DNA of 61,219 bases from Verrucomicrobiia bacterium (GCA_035765895.1 DASTWL010000082.1:1-61219); one strand, 5' to 3'. Shown: positions 3,703 through 38,510, counted from the first letter of the stretch. Made by a program: numbers and translations. The notes: generated by a model not told the origin, from the letters alone.

Positions 3703-3771
3703 ACGTGCCGGGCGCGCGGCCGCGGCGGGAAATGCCATTGCCAGCGGCGGTTCGAGTGGCAAGATTACGGT

Positions 3772-4395
3772 ATGAACTCCCCGCAGTTCTCGGATGGTCG
3801 GCGCGTTGTTTCGGCTGACGGCTTCTCGCTCATTGAGATGCTCATTACGCTGACGCTCATCCTCATCATGTCCGTGATGCTTTACGGCTTCGGCTCGCGC
3901 AGTCATCAGCAGACCCAGAAGCGCGCCTGCGAAAAAAATCTCCAGAACATCTACCTCGCCCTCGACATCTATGGGAAGGAACACGACGGCGCGTTGCCCG
4001 AGGCGGCGGATGCGGCCACCAGCGAGGTGCCGCTGGCGCAACTGGTGCCGCATTACACTGTGGCTTCGGAAGATTTCATCTGTCCGGGCAGCAAGGACAA
4101 GGCGCTGCCGAACGGCGAATCATTCGCGGACCGCCGGATCAGTTACGCCTATTTCAAGGGCCGCAAAACCTCCGATGCCAATGCTCTGTTGATGAGCGAC
4201 CGACAGATCAACACGCTCCCCAAGCCAGCCGGCGCGCCGGTGTTTTCCACCGATGGCAAACCACCAGGCAATAATCACCACAAATACGGGGGCAATTTTC
4301 TGTTCACGGACGGTCATACGGAATCTTCCGGCCCCAAGGCGCCGTTCGTGATCGCGTGGCCGACCAACGTGACGCTGTTGAATCCCAAATCCTGA
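3772..4395 (+). CDS. Pseudopilin-like protein (type IV/II prepilin cleavage domain, H-x9-DG)
   Basis: The N-terminus carries a prepilin peptidase site and hydrophobic helix (GFSLIEMLITLTLILIMSVM, residues ~19-38). A globular domain with DIYGKEHDGALPEA follows, and a C-terminal HHKYGGNFLFTDGH motif. This arrangement is characteristic of the very numerous pseudopilins of Planctomycetes and Verrucomicrobia, whose role is mostly unknown. The protein would be inserted in the inner membrane, processed before F-S-L-I-E and methylated. It has 207 residues. The next gene begins 5 bp after its stop, so they are probably co-transcribed. Confidence 0.85.
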   Translation: MNSPQFSDGRRVVSADGFSLIEMLITLTLILIMSVMLYGFGSRSHQQTQKRACEKNLQNIYLALDIYGKEHDGALPEAADAATSEVPLAQLVPHYTVASEDFICPGSKDKALPNGESFADRRISYAYFKGRKTSDANALLMSDRQINTLPKPAGAPVFSTDGKPPGNNHHKYGGNFLFTDGHTESSGPKAPFVIAWPTNVTLLNPKS

Positions 4396-4400
4396 AACGC

Positions 4401-6854
4401 ATGAAGATCCAGTGCAGTTGCGGGACCAAGGTCGCGTTCGACGTCACGCCGGGCATGGCGACGAATCCGGTGCAGTTCATCTGCCCGAACTGCGGACTCG
4501 ACAGTTCAGCCATGGTAAACCAGCTCATCCGGCAGGAATTGGGAGTGTCTGGCGCCGCGCCTGCGCCCGTTCCCCGACCGGCCGCGGCGCCGCCACCCGT
4601 GCCGCCGCCGATGCCGGGCAAACCGGCAATGCGCGTTGCACTGGCTTCGTCGGCGCCGGCCAGCGCCACGCCCGCGCTGGACGCGTCTCCGGGCAAGGAA
4701 TTTTGCCTCAAGCACCCCGGCAAGCTCGTCGCGCACAAGTGCCTGGTGTGCGGCAAGGCAATGTGTCCGGATTGCATGGCGTTGTTTGGCTACGTGTGTT
4801 CACCGCTGTGCCGCAGCAAGGCCGAGGCACGCAAGCTGGACATTCCGGTTTACGCGCAGCAGAAGAGCGCGGTCGAGGCCCGGCGTTGGCGGAAGACGGG
4901 CTTGGTGGCCGGCAGCGTAGGCGGCGTGGTGGCGCTCCTGGCTGGCTTCTGGTTTTGGTATGCGTGGTTTGGGTCGGTGCCCAACGTGGCATTTGCAATG
5001 AGCTTTCCCAACAAGGTCAGCGCCGGCGAAGTCCGGCTCGCAGGCACGGATCAACTCGTGTTTCTCCACGGTGCGGACCTGGGTCGCATCGACCTGAAAT
5101 CGAAGCGCCAGCTCTGGTCCCTGCCGCTGGTGGATCGCAAGACGTTTGTTCCGGAAGCCGAACAAACCATCAAGCAGCTCGAAAAGGCCCGGGATCGTTA
5201 CAACGCGACGGCCGAAGATCCGGAGGATTTCAAAATCCCGCCGCTCGACAAAATCGTGGATGAGCTGGTGGAGAGCGCCATTGAGGGATTGAAGCTGGTG
5301 GTGGCCGGCCAGAACGTCTGGGTGCTCTCGGGCGACTCGCTGACGCGTTACGAATGGGACACCGGCAAACCCGCGCAAACCATCAAGCTCGCGGGCGCAG
5401 GTCTTGGAATGCGGCGCGAAGGGAACGAACTGCTCCTCACCGAGCCCAGCGAGGATCTGACCAGCGAAACCACGCTGCACATCAATCTGGTGACCGGTGA
5501 AAGCTCCAAAACTACGATCGAAAAACCGCTGCCGCCAAAGCTGGTTGAACTGCTGACGGCGGCGACCAATCGATCCACGCGGGCCGGCACCAAAGTCAGT
5601 CGGGCGTCATCCGCCCGGGTGTCGGCCACGACCGCAAAAGTGGTGGCCGCCAATGCTGCGGCCCGTCCCAGCACGCCGCTGGATCCGCAACGGATCGCCG
5701 CCCAGACGGAAAACATGTCCTTCGCCGCGAAGGTTGCCCTGCCGGCGTTGCTGGCCAACGCGCGCCACCAGCAGGAACTGGCGGCCGAAATGGCGGGCAC
5801 CTCGGGCGCCAAGCCGACGCCACCAACGGAATTGGACCAAGCCATTGCCGAATGGGACGACACCCAGATGATTCCCACTCCTGAAGGGCCGGTGCAGTTC
5901 ACCCGCACGCTGCTGGAGCGCAAAATGGTCACGCGTGAGGCCATGAAAGCACCACCCAAAAAATCGGCGCTCAACGGTAACGTGTCCGCCGCCGATTCCA
6001 TGGCCGTGGCCAATGAAATGCTCAACGAGATGCAGCGCGACCGCGGGTCCACCGTGACTGAGGACCAGAGTCGCTACCGCGTGACGCTGAAACGCGCGGG
6101 CAAGGATGTCCCGGTTTGGACCGGGGAAGTCGCGGGGCCGCCGGCATTTTATCCCCTGCAGACGGTGGACATCCTTACGGCCGGAGCCACGGCCATCGCG
6201 TTGGACCACGCCAACAAAAAACTCTGGCAGGCGCCGCTCAATTTCCCGGTGCACGGCAACTGGGAGGAGTGGGACGCCGCCGAAGAACCCGGCGCGCAAA
6301 GTTCCGGGCTCGGCCCTTGTGTTGAGCGTAGCGACACGATTTACATCTTTGATCAAGGCTCGCTGGCGGCATTTGACCGCACGACGGGCGCGGCCCGCTG
6401 GCGCCTGCCGTCCGTGGGCATCAGCGGCCTGTGGTTCGATGACAGGGGAATGCTTTACGTGAACACCACCACGGCGAGCCCGGACAGTATCCGCTATTCA
6501 AGGCAGATTGATATCAGCAACCAGGCGTTGTCGGAGATTCTCAAGGTCGATCCCAAGACGGGTAAAACGCTCTGGAGCTGCACCGGGGCGAAGCATATTT
6601 GCTACTTGTGGAAGCAATACCTGTTCACCACCGACTCCAATCCCGGTCCGGATCCGGAGGGGGACGGACTGGGAATGACGACGGGATTGGAAACGCCCGC
6701 ATTCCTGCGCATCCGGCGTATCGACGCGGGCTCCGGCCGGATTCTTTGGGAGCACGTGCAGAAGCGGTGTCCGCTCGACATCCAGTTTCACGAGAACACG
6801 ATTCAGCTGCTCTTCAAAAACGAAGTGCAGGAGCTGAAGTTCGTCGTGCTGTAA
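4401..6854 (+). CDS. Membrane protein with two zinc-binding modules and a PQQ-like beta-propeller
   Basis: A modular protein of 817 residues. Residues ~3-33 form a zinc ribbon (CSCG...CPNCG). A Pro/Ala linker leads to a B-box-like cysteine/histidine cluster at ~95-135 (CLKHPGKLVAHKCLVCGKAMCPDC). A transmembrane helix follows (about 165-190), then an outer region with blades such as FDQGSLAAFDRTTGAARWRL and VDPKTGKTLWSC, typical of PQQ-like propellers. The topology implies cytosolic zinc modules and a periplasmic propeller. No PQQ dehydrogenase catalytic residues were recognised, so it is more likely a scaffold than an enzyme. ATG 4401 sits just downstream of the previous stop; an upstream in-frame start would overlap that gene. 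Confidence 0.75.
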   Translation: MKIQCSCGTKVAFDVTPGMATNPVQFICPNCGLDSSAMVNQLIRQELGVSGAAPAPVPRPAAAPPPVPPPMPGKPAMRVALASSAPASATPALDASPGKEFCLKHPGKLVAHKCLVCGKAMCPDCMALFGYVCSPLCRSKAEARKLDIPVYAQQKSAVEARRWRKTGLVAGSVGGVVALLAGFWFWYAWFGSVPNVAFAMSFPNKVSAGEVRLAGTDQLVFLHGADLGRIDLKSKRQLWSLPLVDRKTFVPEAEQTIKQLEKARDRYNATAEDPEDFKIPPLDKIVDELVESAIEGLKLVVAGQNVWVLSGDSLTRYEWDTGKPAQTIKLAGAGLGMRREGNELLLTEPSEDLTSETTLHINLVTGESSKTTIEKPLPPKLVELLTAATNRSTRAGTKVSRASSARVSATTAKVVAANAAARPSTPLDPQRIAAQTENMSFAAKVALPALLANARHQQELAAEMAGTSGAKPTPPTELDQAIAEWDDTQMIPTPEGPVQFTRTLLERKMVTREAMKAPPKKSALNGNVSAADSMAVANEMLNEMQRDRGSTVTEDQSRYRVTLKRAGKDVPVWTGEVAGPPAFYPLQTVDILTAGATAIALDHANKKLWQAPLNFPVHGNWEEWDAAEEPGAQSSGLGPCVERSDTIYIFDQGSLAAFDRTTGAARWRLPSVGISGLWFDDRGMLYVNTTTASPDSIRYSRQIDISNQALSEILKVDPKTGKTLWSCTGAKHICYLWKQYLFTTDSNPGPDPEGDGLGMTTGLETPAFLRIRRIDAGSGRILWEHVQKRCPLDIQFHENTIQLLFKNEVQELKFVVL

Positions 6855-6884
6855 GCCCCGCGCGGCCGCCCGCACCGTCCCACT

Positions 6885-7466
6885 TCACGCCGCCACCTTG
6901 CCGGCCAGAATGTCCCGCACGTCAATCGCCTCCATGCCCGCGGCGCGGATGGCCTGCATGCCCAGGTCGGTGTCCTCGTAAGCGCGGCACAGTTTGGGCG
7001 CAACGCTGATGCGTCGGGCGGCTTCGAGAAAAATGTCCGGTGCCGGTTTTTGGTTCACCACATCTTCACTGGTGACCACGGCTTTGAACAATCGGCGCAG
7101 GCCAAGGTGTTCCATGACCTGCTCGATGACGCGATGGGTGCCACCGGTGGCCACGGCCATGGGCAGTTTTTCGTGGTGGCGATGCGCGATGTCCACTACT
7201 TCGGGAATGATTTCCACCTCCGGCAGGCGCGCGAGAAAGGCAAGTTCCTTTTCCTTCGCAATGGCGAGGTGATCCACCGCACGACCCTGCTCGGACGCGA
7301 GCATTTTGATGATGTCGCGCGAGGGCACGCCGCCCAACGAGTAGAGGCGTTCGCGGGTCAGGTTGAAGCCGTGACGCTGCGCAATGATTTCCCATGCCTG
7401 CCAGTGCAGGGGCATGGTGTCAGCGAGCGTGCCGTCGAAGTCGAAGATTAATCCTTGCGGATGCAT
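6885..7466 (-). CDS. HAD-superfamily phosphatase (beta-phosphoglucomutase-like)
   Basis: A 193-residue HAD hydrolase. Motif I is FDFDGTLADT (nucleophile and general acid aspartates). A cap domain follows (LHWQAWEIIAQRHG), then motif II (AVATGGTHR), the motif III lysine (NQKPAPDIF) and motif IV (YEDTDLGMQA). This set is typical of the beta-phosphoglucomutase/phosphoglycolate phosphatase subfamily, which acts on sugar phosphates in the cytosol. The exact substrate cannot be read from the sequence. The start at 7466 places the motif I strand just after the initiator. It lies 49 bp downstream of the polyphosphate kinase gene on the same strand. Confidence 0.88.
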   Translation of the reverse strand: MHPQGLIFDFDGTLADTMPLHWQAWEIIAQRHGFNLTRERLYSLGGVPSRDIIKMLASEQGRAVDHLAIAKEKELAFLARLPEVEIIPEVVDIAHRHHEKLPMAVATGGTHRVIEQVMEHLGLRRLFKAVVTSEDVVNQKPAPDIFLEAARRISVAPKLCRAYEDTDLGMQAIRAAGMEAIDVRDILAGKVAA

Positions 7467-23153: not shown

Positions 23154-24869
23154 ATGTCCCACAAAATGAAACGCTCCCATTACGCCGACATGTTCGGCCC
23201 GACCACCGGCGACAAGGTCCGGCTCGGCGACACTTCGCTCATCGCGGAAGTCGAGAAAGATTTCACGGTTTACGGCGACGAATGCAAATTCGGCGGCGGC
23301 AAAGTCATCCGCGAAGGCATGGGCCAGGCCGCGGGCGTCGGCGCGAAGGACGCGCTGGATTGCGTCATCACCAATGCGCTCGTGCTTGATTACACCGGCA
23401 TCTACAAGGCCGACATCGGCATCAAGAACGGTCTCATCTCCGGCATCGGCAAGGCGGGCAATCCTGATGTGATGGCGGGCGTGACCAAGGGCATGATTGT
23501 CGGCGTCACCACGGAAGTCATCGCGGGCGAAGGCCTCATTCTCACCGCGGGCGGGCTCGACACGCACATCCATTTCATTTGCCCACAGCAGGCGCACGAA
23601 GCGATTGCCGCCGGTCTCACCACGATGGTTGGCGGCGGCACTGGTCCGGCGGTCGGCACGTGCGCCACGACCTGCACGCCCGCGCCGAATTACATCCGCG
23701 AAATGCTCCGCGCGGTGGATGCGTTGCCGTTGAACTTCGGCTTTACCGGCAAAGGCAACACCGCGATGCCCGCCGGTCTCGCGGATCAAATCAAAGCCGG
23801 CGTCATCGGCCTCAAGCTTCACGAGGACTGGGGCACGACGCCCGCCGCGATTGATTGCTGCCTCGGCATCGCCGACCAGCACGACATTCAGGTGACGATT
23901 CACACCGACACATTAAATGAATCCGCGTTCGTTGAAGGCACAATTGCCGCGTTCAAAGGCCGCACGATTCACACGTATCACAGCGAAGGCGCGGGCGGCG
24001 GTCACGCGCCGGACATCATCCGCATCTGCGGCGAGCCGAACGTGCTGCCGAGTTCCACCAACCCGACGCGACCTTACACGGTCAACACGATTGACGAGCA
24101 CCTCGACATGCTCATGGTCTGCCATCACCTCGATCCGAACCTGCCCGAGGACGTGGCGTTCGCCGAAAGCCGCATTCGCGGCGAGACCATCGCGGCGGAG
24201 GACATCCTGCACGACCTGGGCGCAATTAGCATGATGAGTTCGGATTCGCAGGCCATGGGCCGCATCGGCGAAGTCATCACGCGGTCTTGGCAGACGGCGG
24301 ACAAGATGAAGCAGCAACGCGGTCGTTTGCCCGAGGAAGCCGGCGACAACGACAACGTCCGCATCAAGCGTTACCTCTCCAAATACACCATCAACCCGGC
24401 ACTGGCGCATGGCATGGCGCACGTCATCGGTTCGATTGAAGTCGGCAAACTTGCGGATTTGGTGCTGTGGAAGCCTTCCATGTTCGGCGCGAAGCCCGAG
24501 ATGGTGATCAAAGGTGGATTCATCGCGTGGGCGCAGATGGGCGATCCGAACGCGAGCATTCCGACGCCGCAACCGGTTTACATGCGACCGATGTTCGGTG
24601 CGTTTGGCCGCGCGACCGGCGCGACGAGCATCGCGTTCGTGAGCCAGCTCGCGAAGAAAGCGAACGTCGGCAAAGCCTACGGCCTGACGAAACAAGTCGT
24701 CGCCGTGAAAGGCTGCCGAAAAGTTGGGAAGAAGGATCTCAAGTGGAACAACGCGATGCCGAAGATCACCGTTGATCCGGAAACCTACGAAGTCCGTGCC
24801 GACGGCGAATTGCTGACGTGCGAGCCGGCGAAGGTGTTGCCGCTGGCGCAACGGTATAATTTATTTTAG
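23154..24869 (+). CDS. ureC: Urease alpha subunit
   Basis: Catalytic dinickel subunit that hydrolyses urea to ammonia and carbamate. The 571-residue chain contains DTHIHFICP (two nickel histidines), the carbamylated lysine in GLKLHEDWG, the nickel histidines in [10 protein letters not shown] and [13 protein letters not shown], the catalytic-flap histidine in VCHHLD, and the nickel aspartate in [11 protein letters not shown]. All expected active-site residues are present. The start [20 protein letters not shown] agrees with the family. It is preceded by the palindromic repeat at 23073 with no clear Shine-Dalgarno site. Confidence 0.97.
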
Positions 24870-26713: not shown

Positions 26714-26801
26714 CCTTCCTCCTCGCGCAACGGGTTGCCGGCGGAGCAAACTGCCGGCGAAAGCCGTCTAAGAAACCGCCGCCTGGCGTGTCGTCTTCCT
26801 T

Positions 26802-27422
26802 GTGAGCAGCGACGTTTCGATGCTGGCCATCAGGCTGCCACGGCGGTGGATGCGGGAAAATCAGCAAGGCATGGCTGCGGGCCAACCAGATAAAACGAGC
26901 GTGCAATCGCCCGAAACGATTGAAGCGCTGTTTGCTGCCCTCGAATCCCCGCTGTTGAGCTACGCCCTGCGCCTGACGGGCGAACGAAACGTCGCGGAAG
27001 ACCTGGTTCAAGAAGCGTTCATGAAGCTGCACGCCCAGTTTGACGAAGTGCGCGAACCGCGCCGCTGGCTTTACCGCACGGTGCACAACCGCGCGCTGAA
27101 TCATCGCCGCAACACGGCCAAACTCACGCCGCTCCAGCCGGAGCGCGGCCCGGCCGAAACGCCGGCGCCCGATCCGGCCGATCCGCAGCCGTTGCCGGAT
27201 GAACAGATTGCGCGCCTCGAAGGCATTGGTCTGGTGCGTTTGAGCCTGGCCGCGCTGGACGAACGCAGTCGTGAAATTGTCCGGCTCAAGTTCAACGAGG
27301 ACCTTTCCTACGCGGAAATCGGCCAGCGTACCGGGTTGAAGGTCGGCCACGTGGGTTACCTGCTGCATCACGCGCTGAAACGCATGGCCGCCGAGCTGGC
27401 CAAAACGGGAGTGATGCCATGA
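26802..27422 (+). CDS. ECF-type RNA polymerase sigma factor
   Basis: A sigma-70 family member with regions 2 and 4 only (up to 206 residues). Region 2 holds LLSYALRLTGERNVAEDLVQ and REPRRWLYRTVHNRALNHRR (core and -10 recognition). A Pro-rich linker follows, then region 4 with LDERSREIVRLKFNEDLSYA and EIGQRTGLKVGHVGYLLHHA (-35 recognition). The start is uncertain: GTG 26802, or ATGs at 26820, 26850 and 26871 are possible, the last leaving a usual-length N-terminus. The stop overlaps the next gene by 4 bp, the classic arrangement of an ECF factor with its cognate anti-sigma protein. Confidence 0.88.
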   Translation: MSSDVSMLAIRLPRRWMRENQQGMAAGQPDKTSVQSPETIEALFAALESPLLSYALRLTGERNVAEDLVQEAFMKLHAQFDEVREPRRWLYRTVHNRALNHRRNTAKLTPLQPERGPAETPAPDPADPQPLPDEQIARLEGIGLVRLSLAALDERSREIVRLKFNEDLSYAEIGQRTGLKVGHVGYLLHHALKRMAAELAKTGVMP

Positions 27423-30400
27423 ACCCGGAGCCGCCCATGAATCCCCGCGAAGAACTGGAACTGCGCGTCACGGCGCTGTTGCTGGGTGAATTGTCCGAGG
27501 CGGAAGCGGCGGCTGTGCGCGCAGTGCTGGCCCGCGACGCGGAACTGCAAAAGCTCCACGACGATCTCAAGCAAACCATCCAGTTGGTGCGCGAAGCCGG
27601 CGTGGCGGATGCGGAATCGATGGCGGAACCGGCCGGGCCGCTGAAGCTCGCGGATGAGCGTCGCAAATCGCTGCGGGCCGCCTTCGTCATCCCGCCGTTG
27701 AAACCCGGGACCGTCAAGGGAGAGACCGGATTATCCTACCGTTTACTCGCTGTCCTGGCTGTTCTGGCGATTGTCGGCCTGCTCGCATCGATGCTCATGC
27801 CGGCCTTGAGCAAGTCCAAGAGCAGGGCCCAGTCCGTGGCCGTGCTGAACAATCTCCGGCAGTTGGAGCAGGCCAAACAGATGTGGGCCGAGGACAACCA
27901 GAAGGCCACCGGTGCGGCCCCGACCCTGGAGGATTTGAAGCCCTACCTCGGCGGGCGAACCGGCCTGCCGACGGTTGGTGGCGAGAAATACATTGCCGGG
28001 AAAGTGGGTGAACCCGTGGCGGTGGAACTGGATGCCAAACAGGCGCAGCGTAATTTCGCCCGGCTCGCTTCCAAGCCGCCGGCTGCGGATCAGAACGGCC
28101 GGGTGGTGCAACTCAGGCCGGACGGACGGCTGGCTTACGCCGCCAGAAACCCGCAGTCGCCGCCGACTGGCACCGCTCAAGAGACGCCTTGGAATGCGTC
28201 GGTCGCATTGCGTGGCTTTTATGATGACAACGCTGCATCCGCGAATTCGGTGGAGGCCAAACCGCCCACGACCGTCACCGCCTTGAACCCCGAACCCAAG
28301 CTGGCGCCGCCGCCGACGGAAATCGTCCTGCCACATCCGGATTCGACGCCCGTGTGGGATGGCTTCGCATCGACGAACAGCCTTTTGGCCGGCGCTGATT
28401 TTGCCGCGACAGGCGAAGGTTTGAGCGGCGGGAACCGTGACGGCGATTTGGGCGTGAAGCGCAAGGACGCGGCGACGGCGACCACGGGCGATTCGACCCT
28501 GGCGAAGTCTTACGATCGCTCCATCACCAGTGCAGGGAGTCTCGCTGACGCTGAACGGGCGCGCCGGCCCCGGGCTTTTTCTTGGGAATTCGGAGCGCAG
28601 CCGGGGTATGCTGGCTTGCCCGCTTCGACGACCTCCCCAAATGAAAGTGACTCGCTTGCCGCCGCCGTGCCGGCGCTGGGTGATGTGCCGGCGGTGGGCG
28701 GGCTCTACCGGAACGGCCCGCCGTCCGCTTCGCCTGCAGCTGGGCAGGCGGTTTCGTCGCCGAATAAATCCGAAACAGGAACCGCAACGGGCGGCGGCAA
28801 TGTTTACGCAGGCCCCGCTGTGGTTGGTTACGTTGACGCGAGCAAACCCGCGTCAACATCCGGTTTTGCAATGGCCCTTCAACCCCCGGCCTCGCAAACG
28901 CGCCGAGCAGGAGTGGTTACAGCTGTCGCGGATGAAGCCACCCGCTCTCTCGTGCAAGACGGGAAGGCTTTGTATGACGCAATGAAGCATGATGAAATCG
29001 ATGCCCAATTGAAGAAGGCCACCGTGGTCGAGCCCGGCATCCAGACTGCCAGCGATTATTCAAGTCTGCGGGAGGAACAGCGTGATGCCAGCGCACAGAG
29101 CAAAGTCGAACAATTGACCAGACCACACGCCGATCAATCCCGTTTGGAACAGCAGCACCAACTGGATCAGTTGGTGTCGCAACAAAAAATCCATGAGGCC
29201 CGACTGGCGGCCGAAAAAGTGGACGTCGCTCTGCCAAAATCCGGGATGGTGGAGATTATGAATCGGGCGGTTCCTCCTTCGACATCGGAGAAGGGATTTT
29301 TGGGACGAATCAGCGATGCTTTCCACGGCGGCTATCAAGCGACGGCCACTGTTACGGCGGAGCGAACAGCGCCAGACATTACCGCGTTCTCCGGTTCCCG
29401 GTCCGGCGGGGTATATGATCCCTATTTCGTGCAAACCGAATTCGAGGCCATCAAATCCGAAGCCGTTTTGACGAACGCCGTCCATCAGCTCGGCTTGGCG
29501 AACAAATGGGGCGTCGATCCAACCGAAGCGCTCGCGCGGTTGCGTCGCCGGATCGAACTGAAAGCCAAACCCAATTCAACGTTCATTGACATCTCCGTCA
29601 AAGACGGGGATCCGAAAGAGGCGGCGGCAATTGCGAACGCCGTGGCGGAGGGATACCTGGAGTGGCGCCTGACCCAGACTCGTGAAGCGTCTGAAACAGG
29701 CATCAAGGCCCTTGCACAACGTTTCGCAGAAAATCAAAAAAAGATTGAGGCGGCGCAACGCGAGTTGGCGGCGCTCAAGGGAAGCGGTCAGCCAACGAAC
29801 GCGTCCCAGCGCATTGACGCACCGCTGCCGCGCCCGCCCGCCACAAACGCGCCGATTCCGCAGCCGGAGGTTCAGACGGGCGACAATCCGTTTTCCACCT
29901 TCTCGCTGAACGTCAGCGATGTCTCGTTCAAGCTGGCGGCGGCGAGCCTGGAGCGCGGGCAATTGCCCGATCCCGCGTCGGTGCGCAGCGAGGAGTTCAT
30001 CAATGCCTTCGATTACCGCGATCCGGAGCCAGCGGCGGGCGCGCCGATTGCCTTCGCCTGGGAGCGGGCGCAGGATCCATTCGCCCACAACCGCGATCTG
30101 CTGCGCTTCTCGCTTAAGACCGCGGCGGCGGGCCGGCCGGCCGGGCGCCCGTTGAACTTGGTGCTGTTGCTCGACAATTCCGGTTCGATGGAGCGCGCCG
30201 ACCGCGTGCAGATCATCCGCGAGGCGTTGCGTGTGCTGGCCACTCAGTTGCAGCCGCAGGACAAACTGAGCGTGGTCACCTTCGCCCGCACGCCGCGGCT
30301 GTTTGCGGACGGCGTGGCCGGCGACCAGGCGGGCGGCGTGTTCGAGCAGGTCGGCGGACTCACGCCACAGGGCGGGACGAATCTCGAAGAGGCGATGAAC

Positions 30401-31192
30401 CTCGCCTACCAGACCGCCCTGCGCCATTACCTCGCGGGCGGCATCAATCGCGTGGTGCTCCTCACCGACGGCGCCGCCAATCTCGGTGAGGTGAATCCCG
30501 CGACGTTGCAGCAAAAGGTTGAAGGTTATCGCAAACAAGGCGTCGCGCTCGATTGTTTCGGCATCGGCTGGGAGGATTACAACGATGACCTGCTCGAAGT
30601 GCTTTCCCGCAACGGCGACGGGCGTTACGGCTTTCTCAATTCACCCGCAGAGGCGGCCTCCGAGTTCGCCGGGCAACTGGCCGGCGCGTTGCAGGTGGCG
30701 GCATCGGACGTGAAGGTGCAGGTGGAGTTCAATCCGCGCCGTGTGACGGCGTATCGGCAGATTGGTTACGCCAGGCATCAGCTCACCAAGGAGCAATTCC
30801 GCGACAACACGGTGGATGCCGCCGAAATCGCCGCGCAGGAAGCGGGCAATGCGCTTTACACGGTGGCCGTGAATCCCGCGGGCGAAGGTCCGCTCGGCAC
30901 GGTGCGTGTGCGTTACAAGGTTCCCGGCACTACGGATTATCGCGAGCAGGCGTGGGACGTGCCCTATACCGGCAGCGCCCTGTCGCTCGACCAGGCCAGC
31001 CCGGCCATGCGGCTTGCCGCGACGGCCGCCGCATTTTCCGAGTGGCTGGTGGCCAGTCCCTTTGCCGGCGACGTCTCACCGGCGGCGTTGCTGCGGTATT
31101 TGAACGGCGTGCCGGAAGTATTTGGCGCCGATTCCCGTCCAAAGAAGCTGGAGTGGATGATTCGTCAGGCGAAAGCGGTTTCCGGGCAATAA
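27419..31192 (+). CDS. Anti-sigma-like / Wzz-like / von Willebrand factor A fusion protein (YfbK-related)
   Basis: A 1257-residue protein built from unlike parts. Residues 1-75 resemble the N-terminus of FecR-type anti-sigma proteins (LLLGELSEAEAAAVRAVLAR). One transmembrane helix lies at ~107-128 (LAVLAIVGLLASMLMPAL) and leads into SKSRAQSVAVLNNLRQLEQA, pseudopilin-like. A Gly/Ser/Ala-rich region (~240-660) follows. Residues ~666-790 look like the Wzz/GumC chain-length domain (FEAIKSEAVLTNAVHQLGL, then coiled coil). The C-terminal ~430 residues match YfbK: NPFSTFSLNVSDVSF, a VWA domain with metal site D919-x-S-x-S (LLLDNSGSMERAD), and the DUF3520-like tail. It overlaps the sigma gene by 4 bp, so a role in holding that factor at the membrane is likely. 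Confidence 0.8.
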   Translation: MNPEPPMNPREELELRVTALLLGELSEAEAAAVRAVLARDAELQKLHDDLKQTIQLVREAGVADAESMAEPAGPLKLADERRKSLRAAFVIPPLKPGTVKGETGLSYRLLAVLAVLAIVGLLASMLMPALSKSKSRAQSVAVLNNLRQLEQAKQMWAEDNQKATGAAPTLEDLKPYLGGRTGLPTVGGEKYIAGKVGEPVAVELDAKQAQRNFARLASKPPAADQNGRVVQLRPDGRLAYAARNPQSPPTGTAQETPWNASVALRGFYDDNAASANSVEAKPPTTVTALNPEPKLAPPPTEIVLPHPDSTPVWDGFASTNSLLAGADFAATGEGLSGGNRDGDLGVKRKDAATATTGDSTLAKSYDRSITSAGSLADAERARRPRAFSWEFGAQPGYAGLPASTTSPNESDSLAAAVPALGDVPAVGGLYRNGPPSASPAAGQAVSSPNKSETGTATGGGNVYAGPAVVGYVDASKPASTSGFAMALQPPASQTRRAGVVTAVADEATRSLVQDGKALYDAMKHDEIDAQLKKATVVEPGIQTASDYSSLREEQRDASAQSKVEQLTRPHADQSRLEQQHQLDQLVSQQKIHEARLAAEKVDVALPKSGMVEIMNRAVPPSTSEKGFLGRISDAFHGGYQATATVTAERTAPDITAFSGSRSGGVYDPYFVQTEFEAIKSEAVLTNAVHQLGLANKWGVDPTEALARLRRRIELKAKPNSTFIDISVKDGDPKEAAAIANAVAEGYLEWRLTQTREASETGIKALAQRFAENQKKIEAAQRELAALKGSGQPTNASQRIDAPLPRPPATNAPIPQPEVQTGDNPFSTFSLNVSDVSFKLAAASLERGQLPDPASVRSEEFINAFDYRDPEPAAGAPIAFAWERAQDPFAHNRDLLRFSLKTAAAGRPAGRPLNLVLLLDNSGSMERADRVQIIREALRVLATQLQPQDKLSVVTFARTPRLFADGVAGDQAGGVFEQVGGLTPQGGTNLEEAMNLAYQTALRHYLAGGINRVVLLTDGAANLGEVNPATLQQKVEGYRKQGVALDCFGIGWEDYNDDLLEVLSRNGDGRYGFLNSPAEAASEFAGQLAGALQVAASDVKVQVEFNPRRVTAYRQIGYARHQLTKEQFRDNTVDAAEIAAQEAGNALYTVAVNPAGEGPLGTVRVRYKVPGTTDYREQAWDVPYTGSALSLDQASPAMRLAATAAAFSEWLVASPFAGDVSPAALLRYLNGVPEVFGADSRPKKLEWMIRQAKAVSGQ

Positions 31193-31216
31193 ATCCAACG
31201 CAAAGCGGGGTTCCTT

Positions 31217-34200
31217 ATGAAAACAAAACTCGGCGTCGTGACGCTGGCCTTCACGCTGTTTCTCCCCATGGTGGTGAGCGCCCAAATCAAACTGACCGGG
31301 TTGAAAATATTCGGCGTCCGGGCCGATGGCACCCGCGACAGTTCGGCGTGGGACACCTTGGAAGGCGGCCAGTATTGGGGAGCTTACCTGTTCAGCGGGA
31401 CGGCCCAATCGCCGAAGTTTTTGAACGGCGGCGCCACGGACGATTCGTTGAATCCCAAGGTCGAACTGAAACCGGGCACCTACACCTTTGGCTTTGCCGG
31501 CGACAGCGTTCCCGATCCGGGCGCGACCCTGGAATTGTGTTTCAACGATAACCCGGCGAGCCGGATCAGCGTTACGGCGCAGAAAGAAAGGCCGGGCCTG
31601 TTTTCCGGAACGACCACTTTCAGCACGGGCGAAACAATGGTCACGGTCACCGCGATGCAACTCCTCTCGCCGCCGGTGGACCTCGTCGGTCCGAATGAAA
31701 CCAAACCCAACGGTTCGCTCGACACGGCCGGGACGTTCACGCTGGTCGTGAGCTCAAAACATCCGTCGCCCGCCGCGCCCGTCGCGTTGACCGATTTCAA
31801 CCTCGTCGGCGATCTGGGTTCCAATCGGGCGGAATTCACACTGACGGCCACCGCTTCCGTGGACAATCCGAAAGGCGGTTCGCTCGAGCTGCTTTCCGGT
31901 GCCGTTGCGCTCACGGAAATGGGCGCGCATCCGCAGTGGGATTTGCAGGTCGATCAGGGCCGCTACGTCGCGGTGTTCAAACGCGCCGGCAAATTCGCGC
32001 TGCAGTTCAAGTTCGTGGCGGCGGTGAGTCAGGGCGGCAATTGGAACCGGGTGAACTTCCGCGTTGCCCCCGGCGCCGTGCAGCCGGTGGTGTTGCAAGG
32101 CCTGGGTGCCGACACGCAATTCGCGTTCGTTGGCGCCGCCCGACCGGAACGCCGGACCAACGATTTCGTCAGCTTCCTGCCCGCCGATGGCACGGTAAAT
32201 CTGGCGTGGCAGGAGGCGCGCAAGGCGGAAGAAGGCCGGCTGTTTTACGCAGCCGAGATGTGGTCGCAGGTCACCTTCAGTCCCGGCCTGATGCGGCAGA
32301 CGGGGTTGCTCGACTTCAAAGTCATGCAGGGCGAACTCAGCCAGGTGGCGCTGCTGCTCACCGGGGCCGGCGAGGTCACCCGTGTGCAGGGGAGCGAAGT
32401 GCTGGGCTGGACGGTTGAACCCGCTCCGTCCGGGGCCGGTGTGTCAGGCGACGCCACGCTGCCACGGCGGCTCGTGGTGCGCTTGAACCAGCCGCAAAAG
32501 GACGCGTTCCGCTTGCAGGTGCAGACGCAGACCCCTTTGGGGGCCTTTCCACAAACGGCCACGGTGATGCAGATTCAGCCCGAAGGAGCGACACGGTTCG
32601 CGGGTTACGTGCGCATCGTGAACGAGGGGGCCGTGCGGCTGGAAATCGCGCAGGCGAGCGGCCTGTCACAGATTTCCCCGGAACAATTTCCCGAGAACGA
32701 CGCGACGAAGGCGGCGTTTCAGCCAACGGGACACCAACGGTTCGCCTACCGCTTCTCCAGTCCCGGCTACGCCGTGCGGGTGCAGGCGGACCAGATTCAG
32801 CCTGAGCTGACGGTTTCCGAAGTGCTGGCGTATCATCATGGTGAGAACGAGCTCGCGATCGACGCCGAACTCGAACTTGAAGTCCGTGAAGCGCCGTTGC
32901 GCGAATTGCGGTTGCGGATTCCGGCGGGATTCGCCGTTGCGCGGCTCAATGCGTCAGGTCTGAGTGATTACTTCGTCAGCGCGCCGGGGGCGTCCGGTGA
33001 AGAACCAGCCGATCCCGCTTCCGCCACGCTGCGCCTCGTTTATGGCCAGCCCGTCACCGGCCGGCAGGTCGTGCAGCTCCGGCTCGAACGCAACCAGCCG
33101 CTGGGCGAAACGAACTGGGTGCTGCCGCGCATCGAGGTGAGCAATGCCCGGTCCGTGCGCGGGAACGTCGGCGTCGCGACGGCGGCGGGCTTCCGTTTGT
33201 CGGCCGAACGCACGCAGGGTTTGACGGAAATCGCCCCGGCCTTTTTTCCCGGCAAGGTGCCGAACCTGCAGGCGGCGTTTCGCCTGAGCGATCCAGACTG
33301 GCGCGCCACAATGCACATTGAGCGGCTGCCCCAGACGGTGCAGGCGGACGGCCTGCACCTGTTCTCCATCGGCGAGGGCGTTGCCTACGGCAGCAGCGTG
33401 ATGAATTATTCCATTTCCGGCGCGCCGCTTGCCGCGTTGCGCGTGGAACTGGCGGATGAGTATTTCAACGTCGAGTTCACGGGAAAGGACATCCGCAACT
33501 GGCAGAAAACCACGAACGGCTACCTCGTGCAGTTGCAATCGCCGGTCGCGGGCGCCTACACGCTGCTGGCCACCTACGAACGGCCGTTCAAGGCGCAGGG
33601 CGAAACGCTCGCCTTCACCGGCGCCCGGCCGCTCGACGCGCAGTCCGAGCAGGGCTACACGCTCGTGGTCAGCGCCTACCAATTTCAGGTGAAGCCCGCC
33701 GCGCTCTCTTCCGCGCTGCTGCCGCTGGAGCCGGGCGAGGTGCCGGCCGAATACCGCCTGTTCTTCGACGCCCCGATCCTGGCAGCGTATCACTACAACG
33801 CCCGACCGTTTGATTTGAAGCTCGCGCTCAGTCCGCTGGTGCAGGGGGATTCCATCAGTCTCGTGGTGGACCGCGCGGCTCTCGTCACGCGCATTTCCAA
33901 GGAAGGCCAGGTGTTGACGGACGCGAGTTATTTTTTGAAGAACCGGGGCAATCCCAATCTGCGCCTGACGCTGCCGGCCGGGCTGGCGTTGTGGACGGCC
34001 CGCGTGAATGACGCCGCGGTAGTGCCGGTCCAGGACGGCGACGCCAGTCTCATCCCGCTGCCGCAGCGCGCGGACCCCAACGCAATCGTCAAATTGAATC
34101 TCAAGCTCGCGGCCAAATCTGCCACGGCGCAACACGTGACTGTGACGGCGCCCAGCCTCAACGCGCCGGTCATGCTGGCCGAATGGAAGCTCGAGCCCGA

Positions 34201-37200
34201 TGCCGGACAACGACTGTTGTTTGAGCGCGGCTCGCTCACGCCGGTCGGCGGCGTCCCGGACGTCTCCGGCTTCGCGCAGGCCGCGCGGATGGCGCATCCG
34301 GACCACGGCGGACGGCTGATCACGGCGCTCGTGAGCGTGGGGGTGCTTCTCCTCGCCGGCTTATTGGTCTGGCGTTGGGCGGCCGGCGAAGGCGTCAGCC
34401 GCTTCAGTCTGCGGCACCTCGGCGGAGCATTGATTGGCCTTGTGGCGTTCGTGGCGGCGGGCGTCATGTTGAGCGGAATCTTCCAAGCCGCGGCGGACTT
34501 TCGGGCGGTGGTGCCATCCGACGTTGCGTTTCTGGCGCCGGTGCAGCAGGCCGGCAGCGCGCTCAGTGTGACGGTGACAAATCTGAATGCGGCGACCGCC
34601 GGGGCTGGCTGGGGGGCCACCCTCTTGCTCGCGGTGGCTGGAGCTGCGTTGTGGATCGGCGCATGGTGGTCGGTTTCCCCAGCCAAAAAAATCATGCTGG
34701 GCGCCCTTGGTTGGACGTTGCTGGCCTGGGCGGCGCTGCGGCTGCCGAATGGGCTGCCGTGGTTTCTGGCGATGCTGATTCTCTTCGCGCTGACCCGGGT
34801 GCTTTGGCCCGGACTGCGGCGGCTCTGGGCCGTGCCTGCCAAAGCAACGCTGCCGGCCGGCACGAGCGCCCCCGCGGTTGCAGCATTGCTGGTCGCCAGC
34901 TTGTTGTGGCTTGGCACGGGTTGCGCCATGACCGCGCGGGATGCGTCCGCGCCGTCGTCCCTCGAATCAGTGAGCCAGCAGATCCAAATTGAGGACGGCT
35001 TTGCGTTGGTCACTGCAAAGCTGCACTGGCAGACAGGCGCGGGCCGCGTGTTGCCGCTGTTGTCCGAACCGGGTGTGCTAACCCAGGTAACTTACCCGCA
35101 GCCGGCGCTGGCGTTGGTGGAAACGGTGACGGATGGCCGGCGCGTCCAGCAACTCGAAGCCCGGCGGGCGGGCACCTACGACATCACCCTGCACTATCAG
35201 TTGCATGTGTCCGAGAGTTCCGGGCAAAGCACGATTGCGCTGCCCACGCCTGCCGGACTCATCAACCGGCTCGCGGTCACCGTGACCGGTCTCGACGTGG
35301 ATGTGTTTTCGCCGCAGGCCGTGTCGCTTCAGCGCGAACTGGCGGGCAGCAACACCGTTGCCGCGCTCGTGCTGGCGCCGGCGGCCCAGGTGTCGATTGG
35401 CTGGAAACCCCGCAGTCGCGATGTGAAGCGCGAGAAAGCCGTGTTCTACGCTGAGACGTCGCAACTTTACGTGCCCGCGGCGGGCGTGATCGAAGGCGTG
35501 CACCGGGTCACGCTCCGTCCCGCGCAGGGCGAACTGAACGAGCTGATCTTCGACGTTCCGAAAGGGGCGACCGTGACCGATGTGACGGACGGCAGCACGC
35601 CGAAGAACGCGTCGTCGCTCGTCGCGCTCTGGCGCTTCGATCCGGACACGCGCAAGCTGCGCATCACCTTGAGCCAGCCGCAGTCGCGCCCGTTCACGGT
35701 GCTCGTGCGGTCACAAATTCCGGCGGGCACGCTGCCGTTTCAGCAGTCGGCCGGTTTGCTGGCGGTGGAACAGGCGGCGAACCAGATTGGCGTGCTGGGC
35801 ATCGCCACCGGCAACGAGGTTCAACTCGACAACGTCACGGCGGAAGGACTCGCGCCCATCAATCTCGAGGATTTCCCGGGCGACGTGACCGGCCCGCTCG
35901 CGACGCAGGTCGCCGGGTTGACAGTGCGGCGGGCCTTCCGTTACTCGGATCCGGGGGCCACCGTTTCGCTGCAGGCCTCGCCGGTGGAACCCGACGTGCG
36001 CGTGGAAACGCAGGACACGCTTTCGCTGGGCGAAGACCGCACGGTGCTCGCGGCCGATGCCAAGGTGGACATTTCGCGTGCGGGCATCTTTAAACTGAGC
36101 TTTGTGCTGCCGGCTGGTTTTGACGTGGAGGCCATCAGCGGCGATGCGTTGAGCCACTGGAGCGAATCCAAAACCGACGCGGGCCGGATCATCACGCTGA
36201 ACCTGCGCGGCAAGACACTCGGGCCACAACAGTTCGCCATCAGCCTGGCGGGTCCGGGGGTCAAGGCCACCCGCCTCGCCGGAGCGTGGCCCGTGCCGCA
36301 ATTCAGCCTGCGCGCAGCCAGCAAGCAGCAGGGCACGTTGCTCATCGTGCCGGAACAGGGGATGCAACTGCAGGCCGCCGCACTGGACGGACTCTCCCTG
36401 CTCGACCCGCAGCGCGCCGGCATCCGGCAGAAAGGCGTGCTGGCGTTTCGCATCTTGCAGGCGCCGTGGAAACTGGCGCTCGACATTGAACAGGTCGAGC
36501 CGTGGGTGCAGGTGACCAGCCTGCAGCATGCGAGCGTCAGCGAAGCGCTCGTGAAGGTCGCGGCCAATTTGCAGTATGAAATTGAGAACGCCGGCTTGAA
36601 ATCGTTGCGCGTTTCCCTGCCCACCAACGCCGGGAGCGTGCGCTTCGCCGGCGATCTGGTGACGGATTTCCTGCGCGTGCCCGGCCCGGTGGAAAACGGT
36701 CTGCAAGCCTGGGAGGTGAAACTCGAGCGGCGCATCATCGGGGAGCATCTGCTGCGGGTCACGTATCAGACGGCCATCCCGGAACACGCCACGGAAACCG
36801 TGCTTCGCGGCGTCCGGGCCGACGCCGTAAATTTGCAGCGCGGCTTCGTCACCGTGCAGGCCGGCGGCCGTGTGCAGGTCGGCGCCGAACCGGCGGGAAC
36901 GGCGTTGCAGCCGACCGAGTGGCAGAGCATTCCACGCACCCTGCAACAGGGGCTGGTGGCGGCGGCGGCCAATTACACATTCCGCCTGGCCGATCCGGCG
37001 TTTGCACTGACGCTGAAACTGGACCGCCACGAAGCCGTCAAGCTGCTGCCCGCGCGCGTGAATCGCATCACGTTCAATTCGGTGATTTCCGACGCCGGCG
37101 TGATGCTGACCCAGGCGCGATTGGAAATGTCGCCCGGCGACAAACGGCTGTTGTCCGTCAAGCTGCCCGCGGGAGCGCACTACTGGTTTGCGTTCGTCAA

Positions 37201-38119
37201 TCAGAACGGGGTGTGGCCGTGGCGCGATCAAGATGCCCTGTTGATCCCGCTCGAAAAGCCGTCAGCCGATCACCAGCCCGTGCCGGTGGAAATTTATTTC
37301 AGCAGCCAGGTTGGCCAGCCCGGCGCGGGCCGTTTGGATCTTTCCCTGCTCGCGCCGAAGTTCGATTTGCCGCTCGAAAACATCACCTGGCGGGTCAGTC
37401 TCAGTGAAAAGTGGCGGCTGCAGGACTGGACGGGCACGTTGCAGCTTCAGGACCAGCAGGTCGCCCCGGTGGCGGCCACGCTGGATCTGACGCATTACCT
37501 CGCGGAAGAGGCGGCGCAGCAGGCGCAAAAAACACAGCAGGCCGAGCAGATGCTTTCGCTGGGCAACACTGCGCTGGCCCAGGGCGACCCCCAGCAGGCG
37601 CGGCGGGCCTTTCAAGCGGCGTTTGGTTTGAGCGCGCATGACGACGCGTTCAATGAAGATGCGCGCGTGCAGTTGCATAACCTGAAGCTCCAGCAGGCGT
37701 TGCTTGGGCTGAGCGTGCGACAGGCGGCCGCGGCGGGCGACGCCGGCCCGCTGCTTGGCCGGTTCCGCAGCCCACGCGGCGGTCCGGAATTGAACTACAC
37801 CCAGCAGGACGCCCGGCAGATCATCGAGGCCAACTCCGCCGAGGACAACAGCGCCTACCTGCGGCTCGCGGAAAAACTCGTGCAACAACAGGACGCCGCC
37901 GTGAACAGCGCGAGCGCCATCCGCGCCAACATCCCGGCGGAAGGCCGGGTGCTGACGTTTCAACGCGCCGTGGCCGTGGATCGCGAGGCGGATTTGCACC
38001 TCGGGCTGGAGGTGCAAGCGGTGACCGCCGCCTCGTGGAGCGTAAGAGCCTTGATTCTAGGAGCAACTCTGCTGGTCCTGGGGATGGTTGGCTGGGGTGC
38101 CCGTTCGCTGCGGAGGTGA
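31217..38119 (+). CDS. Giant membrane repeat protein (2300 residues), function unknown
   Basis: Not recognised as a known family. A signal peptide (residues 1-22, LFLPMVVSAQ) leads to a beta-rich ectodomain. About five transmembrane helices cluster at ~1031-1235 and end in LLVASLLWLGTGC (Cys 1236), which looks like a lipoprotein signal within the chain. A second ectodomain (~1237-2270) follows, with a TPR-like helical part (~2095-2160, QAEQMLSLGNTALAQGDPQQ), then a C-terminal helix and basic tail. A repeat is seen about four times (near 475, 658, 1535 and 1885), with cores GLSQISPEQFP, GLTEIAPAFFP and GLAPINLEDFP leading to FRYSDP-like sequence. It begins 24 bp after the VWA gene and is surely co-transcribed. 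Confidence 0.75.
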   Translation: MKTKLGVVTLAFTLFLPMVVSAQIKLTGLKIFGVRADGTRDSSAWDTLEGGQYWGAYLFSGTAQSPKFLNGGATDDSLNPKVELKPGTYTFGFAGDSVPDPGATLELCFNDNPASRISVTAQKERPGLFSGTTTFSTGETMVTVTAMQLLSPPVDLVGPNETKPNGSLDTAGTFTLVVSSKHPSPAAPVALTDFNLVGDLGSNRAEFTLTATASVDNPKGGSLELLSGAVALTEMGAHPQWDLQVDQGRYVAVFKRAGKFALQFKFVAAVSQGGNWNRVNFRVAPGAVQPVVLQGLGADTQFAFVGAARPERRTNDFVSFLPADGTVNLAWQEARKAEEGRLFYAAEMWSQVTFSPGLMRQTGLLDFKVMQGELSQVALLLTGAGEVTRVQGSEVLGWTVEPAPSGAGVSGDATLPRRLVVRLNQPQKDAFRLQVQTQTPLGAFPQTATVMQIQPEGATRFAGYVRIVNEGAVRLEIAQASGLSQISPEQFPENDATKAAFQPTGHQRFAYRFSSPGYAVRVQADQIQPELTVSEVLAYHHGENELAIDAELELEVREAPLRELRLRIPAGFAVARLNASGLSDYFVSAPGASGEEPADPASATLRLVYGQPVTGRQVVQLRLERNQPLGETNWVLPRIEVSNARSVRGNVGVATAAGFRLSAERTQGLTEIAPAFFPGKVPNLQAAFRLSDPDWRATMHIERLPQTVQADGLHLFSIGEGVAYGSSVMNYSISGAPLAALRVELADEYFNVEFTGKDIRNWQKTTNGYLVQLQSPVAGAYTLLATYERPFKAQGETLAFTGARPLDAQSEQGYTLVVSAYQFQVKPAALSSALLPLEPGEVPAEYRLFFDAPILAAYHYNARPFDLKLALSPLVQGDSISLVVDRAALVTRISKEGQVLTDASYFLKNRGNPNLRLTLPAGLALWTARVNDAAVVPVQDGDASLIPLPQRADPNAIVKLNLKLAAKSATAQHVTVTAPSLNAPVMLAEWKLEPDAGQRLLFERGSLTPVGGVPDVSGFAQAARMAHPDHGGRLITALVSVGVLLLAGLLVWRWAAGEGVSRFSLRHLGGALIGLVAFVAAGVMLSGIFQAAADFRAVVPSDVAFLAPVQQAGSALSVTVTNLNAATAGAGWGATLLLAVAGAALWIGAWWSVSPAKKIMLGALGWTLLAWAALRLPNGLPWFLAMLILFALTRVLWPGLRRLWAVPAKATLPAGTSAPAVAALLVASLLWLGTGCAMTARDASAPSSLESVSQQIQIEDGFALVTAKLHWQTGAGRVLPLLSEPGVLTQVTYPQPALALVETVTDGRRVQQLEARRAGTYDITLHYQLHVSESSGQSTIALPTPAGLINRLAVTVTGLDVDVFSPQAVSLQRELAGSNTVAALVLAPAAQVSIGWKPRSRDVKREKAVFYAETSQLYVPAAGVIEGVHRVTLRPAQGELNELIFDVPKGATVTDVTDGSTPKNASSLVALWRFDPDTRKLRITLSQPQSRPFTVLVRSQIPAGTLPFQQSAGLLAVEQAANQIGVLGIATGNEVQLDNVTAEGLAPINLEDFPGDVTGPLATQVAGLTVRRAFRYSDPGATVSLQASPVEPDVRVETQDTLSLGEDRTVLAADAKVDISRAGIFKLSFVLPAGFDVEAISGDALSHWSESKTDAGRIITLNLRGKTLGPQQFAISLAGPGVKATRLAGAWPVPQFSLRAASKQQGTLLIVPEQGMQLQAAALDGLSLLDPQRAGIRQKGVLAFRILQAPWKLALDIEQVEPWVQVTSLQHASVSEALVKVAANLQYEIENAGLKSLRVSLPTNAGSVRFAGDLVTDFLRVPGPVENGLQAWEVKLERRIIGEHLLRVTYQTAIPEHATETVLRGVRADAVNLQRGFVTVQAGGRVQVGAEPAGTALQPTEWQSIPRTLQQGLVAAAANYTFRLADPAFALTLKLDRHEAVKLLPARVNRITFNSVISDAGVMLTQARLEMSPGDKRLLSVKLPAGAHYWFAFVNQNGVWPWRDQDALLIPLEKPSADHQPVPVEIYFSSQVGQPGAGRLDLSLLAPKFDLPLENITWRVSLSEKWRLQDWTGTLQLQDQQVAPVAATLDLTHYLAEEAAQQAQKTQQAEQMLSLGNTALAQGDPQQARRAFQAAFGLSAHDDAFNEDARVQLHNLKLQQALLGLSVRQAAAAGDAGPLLGRFRSPRGGPELNYTQQDARQIIEANSAEDNSAYLRLAEKLVQQQDAAVNSASAIRANIPAEGRVLTFQRAVAVDREADLHLGLEVQAVTAASWSVRALILGATLLVLGMVGWGARSLRR

Positions 38120-38159: not shown

Positions 38160-38510
38160 TGGTGGAGGCGGCGGGAATTGAACCCGCGTCCCTGGCAAAT
38201 TTACCAGCCGCGACTACATGCTTAGCCGGAAGAAAGTCTCGACCGCCGGATAACCTTCCGACACGAATCCAACGGTCCAGTCCGCAGTAATCTCTCGGGC
38301 GAACGCCTGCCTGACTCCACGTTCAACCCATGCCTGCTGTTGCGTTCAGCCGGCGTAGCAGGTGTCCACCGGTGAACGTCGGGGCCTTAGGCCGCGAGAG
38401 CTAATTCTTCGTTAGCAACTAATGTTTGATGCGATGATTTACGAGGCCAACGCATCGTCCTCGGCATGCCGCCTCTGGCGCCTCTCCCAGGTCGAAACCG
38501 GTGCGCCCCC
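38160..38510 (-). ncRNA. ssrA: Transfer-messenger RNA (tmRNA)
   Basis: Rescues stalled ribosomes. The 5' end GGGGGCG pairs with CGCCTCC at the 3' end (6 Watson-Crick pairs and one G-U), followed by A and an encoded CCA. The 5' part has GGTTTCGACC, the usual tmRNA start. The T-arm is GCGGG-TTCAATT-CCCGC. After cgtaaatcatcg and ttagtt, the resume codon GCT opens a frame coding ANEELALAA then TAA, a good degradation tag ending in LAA-like LALAA. Length is 351 nt. It faces away from the giant gene, with the ends ~40 bp apart. Confidence 0.96.

Follow-up and report, generated by a model that had tools for sequence, protein, structure and literature searches.

A putative ECF sigma factor circuit with a VWA-bearing anti-sigma protein and a giant envelope protein in Verrucomicrobiota

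In the AlgU-MucA, SigE-ChrR, SigW-RsiW, and SigL-RslA pairs, an extracytoplasmic function (ECF) sigma factor and its class I anti-sigma partner are encoded by adjacent, overlapping genes, with a helical anti-sigma fold at the N-terminus of the partner. The membrane-bound members have one transmembrane (TM) helix and a periplasmic or extracellular part, and a promoter of typical -35/-10 spacing lies ahead of the operon. A similar arrangement is found in a Verrucomicrobiia bacterium contig (GCA_035765895.1, DASTWL010000082.1), which was analysed over its whole length of 61,219 nt (the window); the contig is part of a 4.64-Mb assembly, and its named relatives are Verrucomicrobiota. Here a sigma gene overlaps by 4 bp the gene for a 1257-residue fusion of anti-sigma, TM, and VWA domains, and a gene for a 2300-residue giant protein begins 24 bp after its end; these open reading frames (ORFs), all on the + strand, match those described in an earlier note made from the sequence. 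The locus differs from the known pairs in that the fusion has no zinc ligands and carries a YfbK-type VWA region as its periplasmic part, with variable pilin-like or Wzz-like inserts, and in that the main target is predicted to be the giant protein. Its principal features are:

26765..26792, + strand: ECF-type bipartite promoter CGTCTAAGAAA-N12-GTGTC, putatively autoregulatory (upstream dyad search and genome scans)
26802..27422, + strand: ECF sigma factor (Pfam Sigma70_r2/r4, TIGR02937); start probably ATG 26850 or 26871
27419..31192, + strand: anti-sigma/TM/VWA fusion, 1257 aa (profile matches, AlphaFold2 (AF2) head model, TM prediction, conservation of the metal ion-dependent adhesion site (MIDAS))
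31217..38119, + strand: giant envelope protein, 2300 aa, without a Pfam or NCBIfam family

Sequence comparisons make it fairly probable that these genes constitute an autoregulated circuit of an ECF sigma factor and a membrane anti-sigma protein, dedicated to the giant envelope protein. In the resting state, the fusion would tether the sigma factor to the inner membrane through its N-terminal anti-sigma domain, and its periplasmic part (a variable linker, sometimes a Wzz-like insert, and a metal-binding YfbK-type VWA domain) would read the state of the periplasm. A conformational or proteolytic step would release the sigma factor, which could then bind TCGTCTAAKRAA-N12-GTGTC, leading to transcription of the genes for sigma factor, fusion, and giant. 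The giant would be the working output, with about ten beta-sandwich domains, two periplasmic arms, and a six-helix membrane core. Because the inhibitor would be co-produced, and there would be almost no other target, the circuit would set the level of the giant, as a homeostat or a switch, and not that of a broad stress regulon. We infer the binding of the sigma factor by the head, the topology, the VWA signal, the release step, and the role of the giant.

Gene order and distribution

Of 288 genomes sampled from the phylum, 60 encode a giant, and 416 stretches among 84,980 species genomes were confirmed as relatives. Almost all of the best 77 loci carry a Verrucomicrobiota label (one comes from a Rudaea-labelled metagenome-assembled genome, and two are labelled only "bacterium"); they include the cultured Chthoniobacter flavus Ellin428, whose operon bears a variant of the promoter.

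Gene neighbourhoods were parsed by script in 137 loci, and gene order was assessed in the 88 that have a giant longer than 1900 aa and 5.5 kb or more of upstream sequence. Both a sigma gene and a VWA fusion gene lie upstream on the same strand in 80 of the 88, a recurrence that argues against a chance association, and in 74 of 82 after removal of six duplicates (the same contig in two collections). The single operon proposed in the earlier note is thereby supported, and the check it had suggested, whether gene order is kept across Verrucomicrobiota, came out in its favour. A sigma/fusion overlap of exactly 4 bp, shared by 42 loci (38 once duplicates are removed), suggests translational coupling. 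Distances among the sigma, VWA, and giant sequences are also correlated (r 0.86-0.93, Mantel 0/500), most strongly for the giant and VWA (0.93); this fits joint inheritance of the three, in a figure that ignores species phylogeny and that shared ancestry alone would also give.

The eight exceptions to this order are five distant relatives with two tandem giant-like ORFs and three full-length orphan giants. The tandem ORFs (L102, L104, L107, L108, and L109; about 1170-1240 plus 2250-2500 aa, without sigma or VWA genes) are, judging by their sequences, a second, unregulated branch of the giant family. The distribution of the trio is patchy: a genome of the same genus (G288) has no YfbK match. 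Four genomes (94-98% complete) encode full-length giants without a YfbK-VWA protein anywhere, so the giant would be able to work without the sigma system. The earlier note had reckoned with sigma homologues lacking both partners as a point against it. This objection applies in part: sigma-VWA pairs without a giant do exist, in Verrucomicrobiota (L099-L101) and on Rhizobium plasmids; in the loci examined, no sigma gene was seen without any fusion partner. Since giants occur without VWA proteins and sigma-VWA pairs without giants, the pair would be the regulator and the giant the effector.

No plasmid-borne giants were found. A conserved fourth gene was considered and rejected, as the neighbours vary by locus and the Pfam matches of flanking ORFs are unrelated. 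Two loci have additional genes of the same kinds. L075 (G159:C127) has two VWA-fusion genes in tandem between the sigma and giant genes, and L089 (G325:C325) has two tandem pairs of sigma and anti-sigma-head genes, at 1-2558 and 2778-7234; the partner in the second pair is truncated by the contig end, and its available 669 aa show no VWA match. From L089, it seems that other kinds of periplasmic domain may be joined to the anti-sigma head.

The promoter and its targets

The sigma factor falls among the ECF (group 4) proteins, with the length of about 180-200 aa usual for that group and sigma70 regions 2 and 4 only (PF04542 and PF08281, both above cut-off; Sigma70_r2, E = 8e-13; TIGR02937, E = 4e-24, 85 bits against a cut-off of 42.9) and, by sequence, a spaced bipartite promoter of ECF type upstream of its own operon. 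This promoter came from a search for any 4+4 dyad in the sequences preceding 75 non-duplicate sigma genes, with eight shuffles as control: CTAA-N17-TGTC was found in 41 of the 75, compared to 7-12 for the best dyad in each shuffle. The extended consensus is TTTcGTCTAAGAAA-N12-GTGTC, and the window has TCGTCTAAKRAA-N12-GTGTC directly upstream of its sigma gene, at 26765-26792. At least 10 further loci have a CTAA-N-CGTC variant or a spacing shifted by one base. Where present, there is one high-scoring site per locus, and none near the start of the giant gene. The annotated sigma start (GTG 26802) is probably too early, with ATG 26850 or 26871 preferred, because of the -10-like box at 26788-26792, the lengths of the homologues (mostly about 181-190 aa), and one relative in which the sigma gene begins about 60 nt past the same promoter.

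The exact sequence is rare outside these operons. Within the window's own genome, nothing but the operon site matches with at most one mismatch, and a relaxed search gave no excess over a reversed-pattern control (18 vs. 23), so that a broad regulon was rejected as far as a consensus search can detect it. The nine zero-mismatch sites in a set of 20 genomes all belong to sigma-fusion-giant operons (in one, from the same-family genome G290, the contig stops within the fusion). A scan of 196 genomes across the order returned 28 perfect sites, against none for the reversed control. The operon's sigma gene follows directly after 22 of them and a giant gene after one; two reach a contig end, and the ORFs after the remaining three are unrelated or unclear.

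A split operon in one genome (G478) is especially informative. On contig C91, a perfect promoter copy lies just ahead of the signal-peptide start of a giant gene, and the 606 bases preceding that gene contain no sigma or VWA gene; on contig C178, sigma and fusion genes have their own promoter copy, with no giant gene within the following 8.9 kb. The presence of the promoter at both separated parts is the strongest sequence evidence for the giant as a target of the sigma factor; it comes from a single genome, whose assembly is fragmented (87% complete, 660 contigs).

Several points weigh against a circuit with a single dedicated target. The exact motif is missing in 34 of the 75 loci, mostly from more distant families, and even a relaxed version is missing in about 21. 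The six perfect sites away from sigma genes may include a few extra targets, and weakly matching targets, which escape a consensus search, could exist.

Perfect promoter copies in L234, L255, and L259 precede ORFs that are neither sigma nor giant genes, and are candidates for additional targets; the ORF in L259 encodes 162 aa with an apparent signal peptide.

The fusion and giant proteins

The fusion can be divided as follows:

27419..27703, + strand: zinc-less class I anti-sigma domain, predicted cytoplasmic, residues 1-95 (AF2, Foldseek/VIA)
27731..28063, + strand: single TM helix in a pseudopilin-like segment, residues about 105-215 (GspG, E = 4e-5)
29327..29833, + strand: Wzz/EpsF-like segment, predicted periplasmic, a variable insert, residues about 637-805 (TIGR03017, E = 2e-8)
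29870..31096, + strand: YfbK-type vWF_A + VWA + YfbK_C, residues 818-1226 (Pfam)

An AF2 model of the head, based on 37 sequences, has high local confidence (pLDDT 86-98 for residues 1-60) and helices at residues 9-21, 27-39, 41-68, and 79-89. It has the form expected of a class I anti-sigma domain (ASDI), an N-terminal three-helix bundle plus a fourth helix, encoded next to the sigma gene. In a Foldseek search with this model, all 14 of the best PDB matches were class I anti-sigma domains, with structural matches to MucA, ChrR, RslA, RsiW, and RskA (VIA Z 4.8-6.7); the single E-values (0.16-1.6) are weak because the domain is small, and the weight rests on the coherence of the list. Going by the model, the head would be a class I anti-sigma domain, from which we infer sigma binding. 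The zinc H-C-C motif is absent from residues 1-95, which rules out the zinc-binding (ZAS) subgroup and not the ASDI class. The "FecR-like head" of the earlier note is thus borne out as an anti-sigma domain, with FecR a loose label: among the 37 homologous heads, zf-HC2 matches weakly in six and DUF4880 in one.

The only TM helix of the fusion is at residue ~118, which would place the VWA domain on the periplasmic side, as that note had proposed; the pseudopilin-like and Wzz-like segments had been overlooked in it. The pseudopilin-like segment has 51 further matching places in the same genome, with up to 50% identity, and its C-terminal part is found in 5 of 91 fusions. The fusion has no N_methyl match as a sign of a prepilin peptidase site (GFTLIE-like); a true pilin-like protein of a relative does match this profile. 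The Wzz-like segment, found in 14 of the 91 fusions, belongs to a linker that varies among relatives. It has no flanking TM helices, so that this polysaccharide co-polymerase (PCP)-like segment is not classed with Wzz and the PCP proteins themselves, and its 49% identity to part of a frame of 729 aa at another place in the same genome suggests that it was gained by domain capture. The VWA region has the order vWF_A (E = 4e-15), VWA (1e-13), YfbK_C (2.7e-28), all above cut-off, and its MIDAS (DxSxS, T, D) is intact, with D919, S921, S923, T987, and D1017 invariant in 37 homologues.

The giant, which has no Pfam or NCBIfam family match, was divided from its sequence, alignments, and models:

31217..31282, + strand: signal peptide, residues 1-22, MKTKLGVVTLAFTLFLPMVVSA (from sequence)
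31664..34321, + strand: N-half, predicted periplasmic beta-domain array, about residues 150-1035 (homology to C-half)
34322..34924, + strand: six-TM cluster, centres 1043, 1081, 1142, 1165, 1191, and 1226 (alignment-averaged hydropathy, 34 giants)
34949..38026, + strand: C-half, predicted periplasmic beta-domain array, residues 1245-2270 (AF2 pLDDT 84, pTM 0.43)
37487..37900, + strand: TPR-like helical insert in the last beta domain (DSSP of the model, consensus-TPR matches)
37652..37672, + strand: NEDARVQ motif, residues 2146-2152, in the TPR-like insert (invariant in 52 sequences)
38036..38116, + strand: C-terminal TM helix and short basic tail (hydropathy, AF2 model)

The halves align with each other as homologues (hhalign E = 1.9e-78 across 799 columns), with internal offsets of about 155-190 residues, in agreement with the "giant repeat protein" of the earlier note. 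The signal peptide, the TM helices, and the positively charged loops of the TM cluster on its predicted cytoplasmic side suggest that both halves, of ~1000 residues each, are periplasmic. By these sequence features, the giant is a new family with two homologous periplasmic beta-sandwich halves around six TM helices; in the periplasm, it would plausibly serve as a structural element, tether, or carrier. Its most conserved motif is NEDARVQ. At the start of the C-half, the window has LGTGC, which was considered as a lipobox and rejected, as relatives do not keep it.

The AF2 model of the C-half, from 52 sequences, is reliable as to domain folds and not as to their arrangement, as judged by its pLDDT and pTM. 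In it, the last beta domain resembles M1 aminopeptidase N-domains (Z 12.5-13.9, root-mean-square deviation (rmsd) 3.0-4.2 over 150-168 residues; best match Z 13.9, rmsd 3.3 over 150 residues), and together with its neighbour resembles Ost1/ribophorin I (Z 16.6, rmsd 19.8). The Ribophorin_I profile (PF04597) does not match the giant (its best match in the genome is elsewhere, E 0.44, below cut-off), and Peptidase_M1_N (PF17900) has no match in the genome; these likenesses are therefore taken as fold resemblance and not as membership. Foldseek matches to integrin and alpha-2-macroglobulin were set aside as generic beta-sandwich chains (TM-score about 0.05-0.16).

Apart from these genes, the window has an Rfam match to 5_ureB_sRNA (105 bits) at 23307-23600, - strand, antisense inside the gene for the urease alpha subunit; it could be a genuine antisense RNA, or merely conserved coding sequence that the model matches.

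Possible functions and related systems

The earlier note had proposed the giant as a sensor or scaffold, which would bind a ligand and signal to the VWA fusion, leaving the sigma factor to control other genes. Adjacency in one operon, co-inheritance with the sigma and VWA genes, and the correlated distances would all suit such a role, and a VWA domain whose MIDAS is intact could plausibly bind another protein. However, giants persist without the fusion and sigma-VWA pairs without giants, the window's own genome has no wider set of promoter sites for the sigma factor to act on, and the relocated giant of G478 bears its own sigma promoter, as a target would; this role for the giant is thus unlikely. 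A little less likely still is a conventional ECF system for envelope stress whose broad regulon happens to include the giant. A class I anti-sigma head joined to a periplasmic domain is the standard design of a stress sensor, but perfect promoter sites number about one per carrying genome, nearly always at the operon. That the trio might be a mobile island or defence cassette at ssrA is suggested by its patchy distribution and by the transfer-messenger RNA (tmRNA) gene (tag ANEELALAA; 38160-38510, - strand) 40 bp past the giant. This seems highly improbable, as the window has no repeat of the ssrA 3' end and there is no tmRNA beside 88 other loci; a defence system was separately rejected, with no PADLOC match.

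One further possibility overlaps with the dedicated circuit preferred here, and can be proposed tentatively. The giant might be input as well as output, in a kind of inventory sensing: a free VWA domain would detect a missing or unoccupied giant, the sigma factor being released until there is enough of it. Autoregulation with a single target suits homeostasis, the predicted location of both the VWA domain and the giant is periplasmic, and theirs is the highest of the three distance correlations; on the other hand, contact between them is hypothetical, and the Rhizobium sigma-VWA pairs stand without a giant. It is likewise conceivable, at about the same level of doubt, that the VWA domain with its metal measures the giant or the giant's load, as part of a closed homeostat with one target, a private sigma factor and an undescribed, M1/ribophorin-like class of giant.

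Under the dedicated circuit, the probable purpose of the sigma switch is to adjust the quantity of giant protein. In Verrucomicrobiota, a phylum common in soil and water, a conserved, unnamed envelope protein of ~2300 residues would now be tied to a promoter, a regulator, and an inhibitor. The promoter consensus makes the regulon predictable, and Chthoniobacter flavus is a cultured carrier. The widespread and unexplained YfbK-type VWA proteins would be likely sensing ends of membrane anti-sigma factors in Verrucomicrobiota, and perhaps in rhizobia.

Each regulatory part, as far as can be judged from sequence, is of a known kind. No description of the trio, its promoter, or the giant family was found in the open-access literature searched, and surveys of ECF classification or of Planctomycetes ECF factors may contain the sigma group; to our knowledge, the promoter consensus (TCTAAGAA / GTGTC) is not recognisable from described ECF groups. 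The last beta domain of the giant shares its fold with the M1 N-domain and the lumenal domains of ribophorin I/Ost1, but the giant has no profile match and no catalytic domain, and the scale of its array is different. E. coli YfbK has the same vWF_A + VWA + YfbK_C architecture as the fusion (the profile matches the E. coli control genome); it differs in that an enteric plasmid copy that was inspected stands alone, with no sigma gene nearby.

A related pair is found on Rhizobium lentis plasmid p3 (WP_207245983 and WP_207245984, at 214998-217657 of NZ_CP071457.1), with no annotation beyond sigma factor and VWA protein. As in the window, the sigma gene overlaps the YfbK-VWA gene by 4 bp, and by sequence there is a TM-like stretch ahead of the VWA region, which is 32% identical to that of the window; unlike the window, there is no adjoining giant gene, and the short head has no recognisable similarity to the window's. 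YfbK-like matches are found on 113 Rhizobium plasmid records, and pairs of a sigma factor and a TM-YfbK protein may be common on these plasmids.

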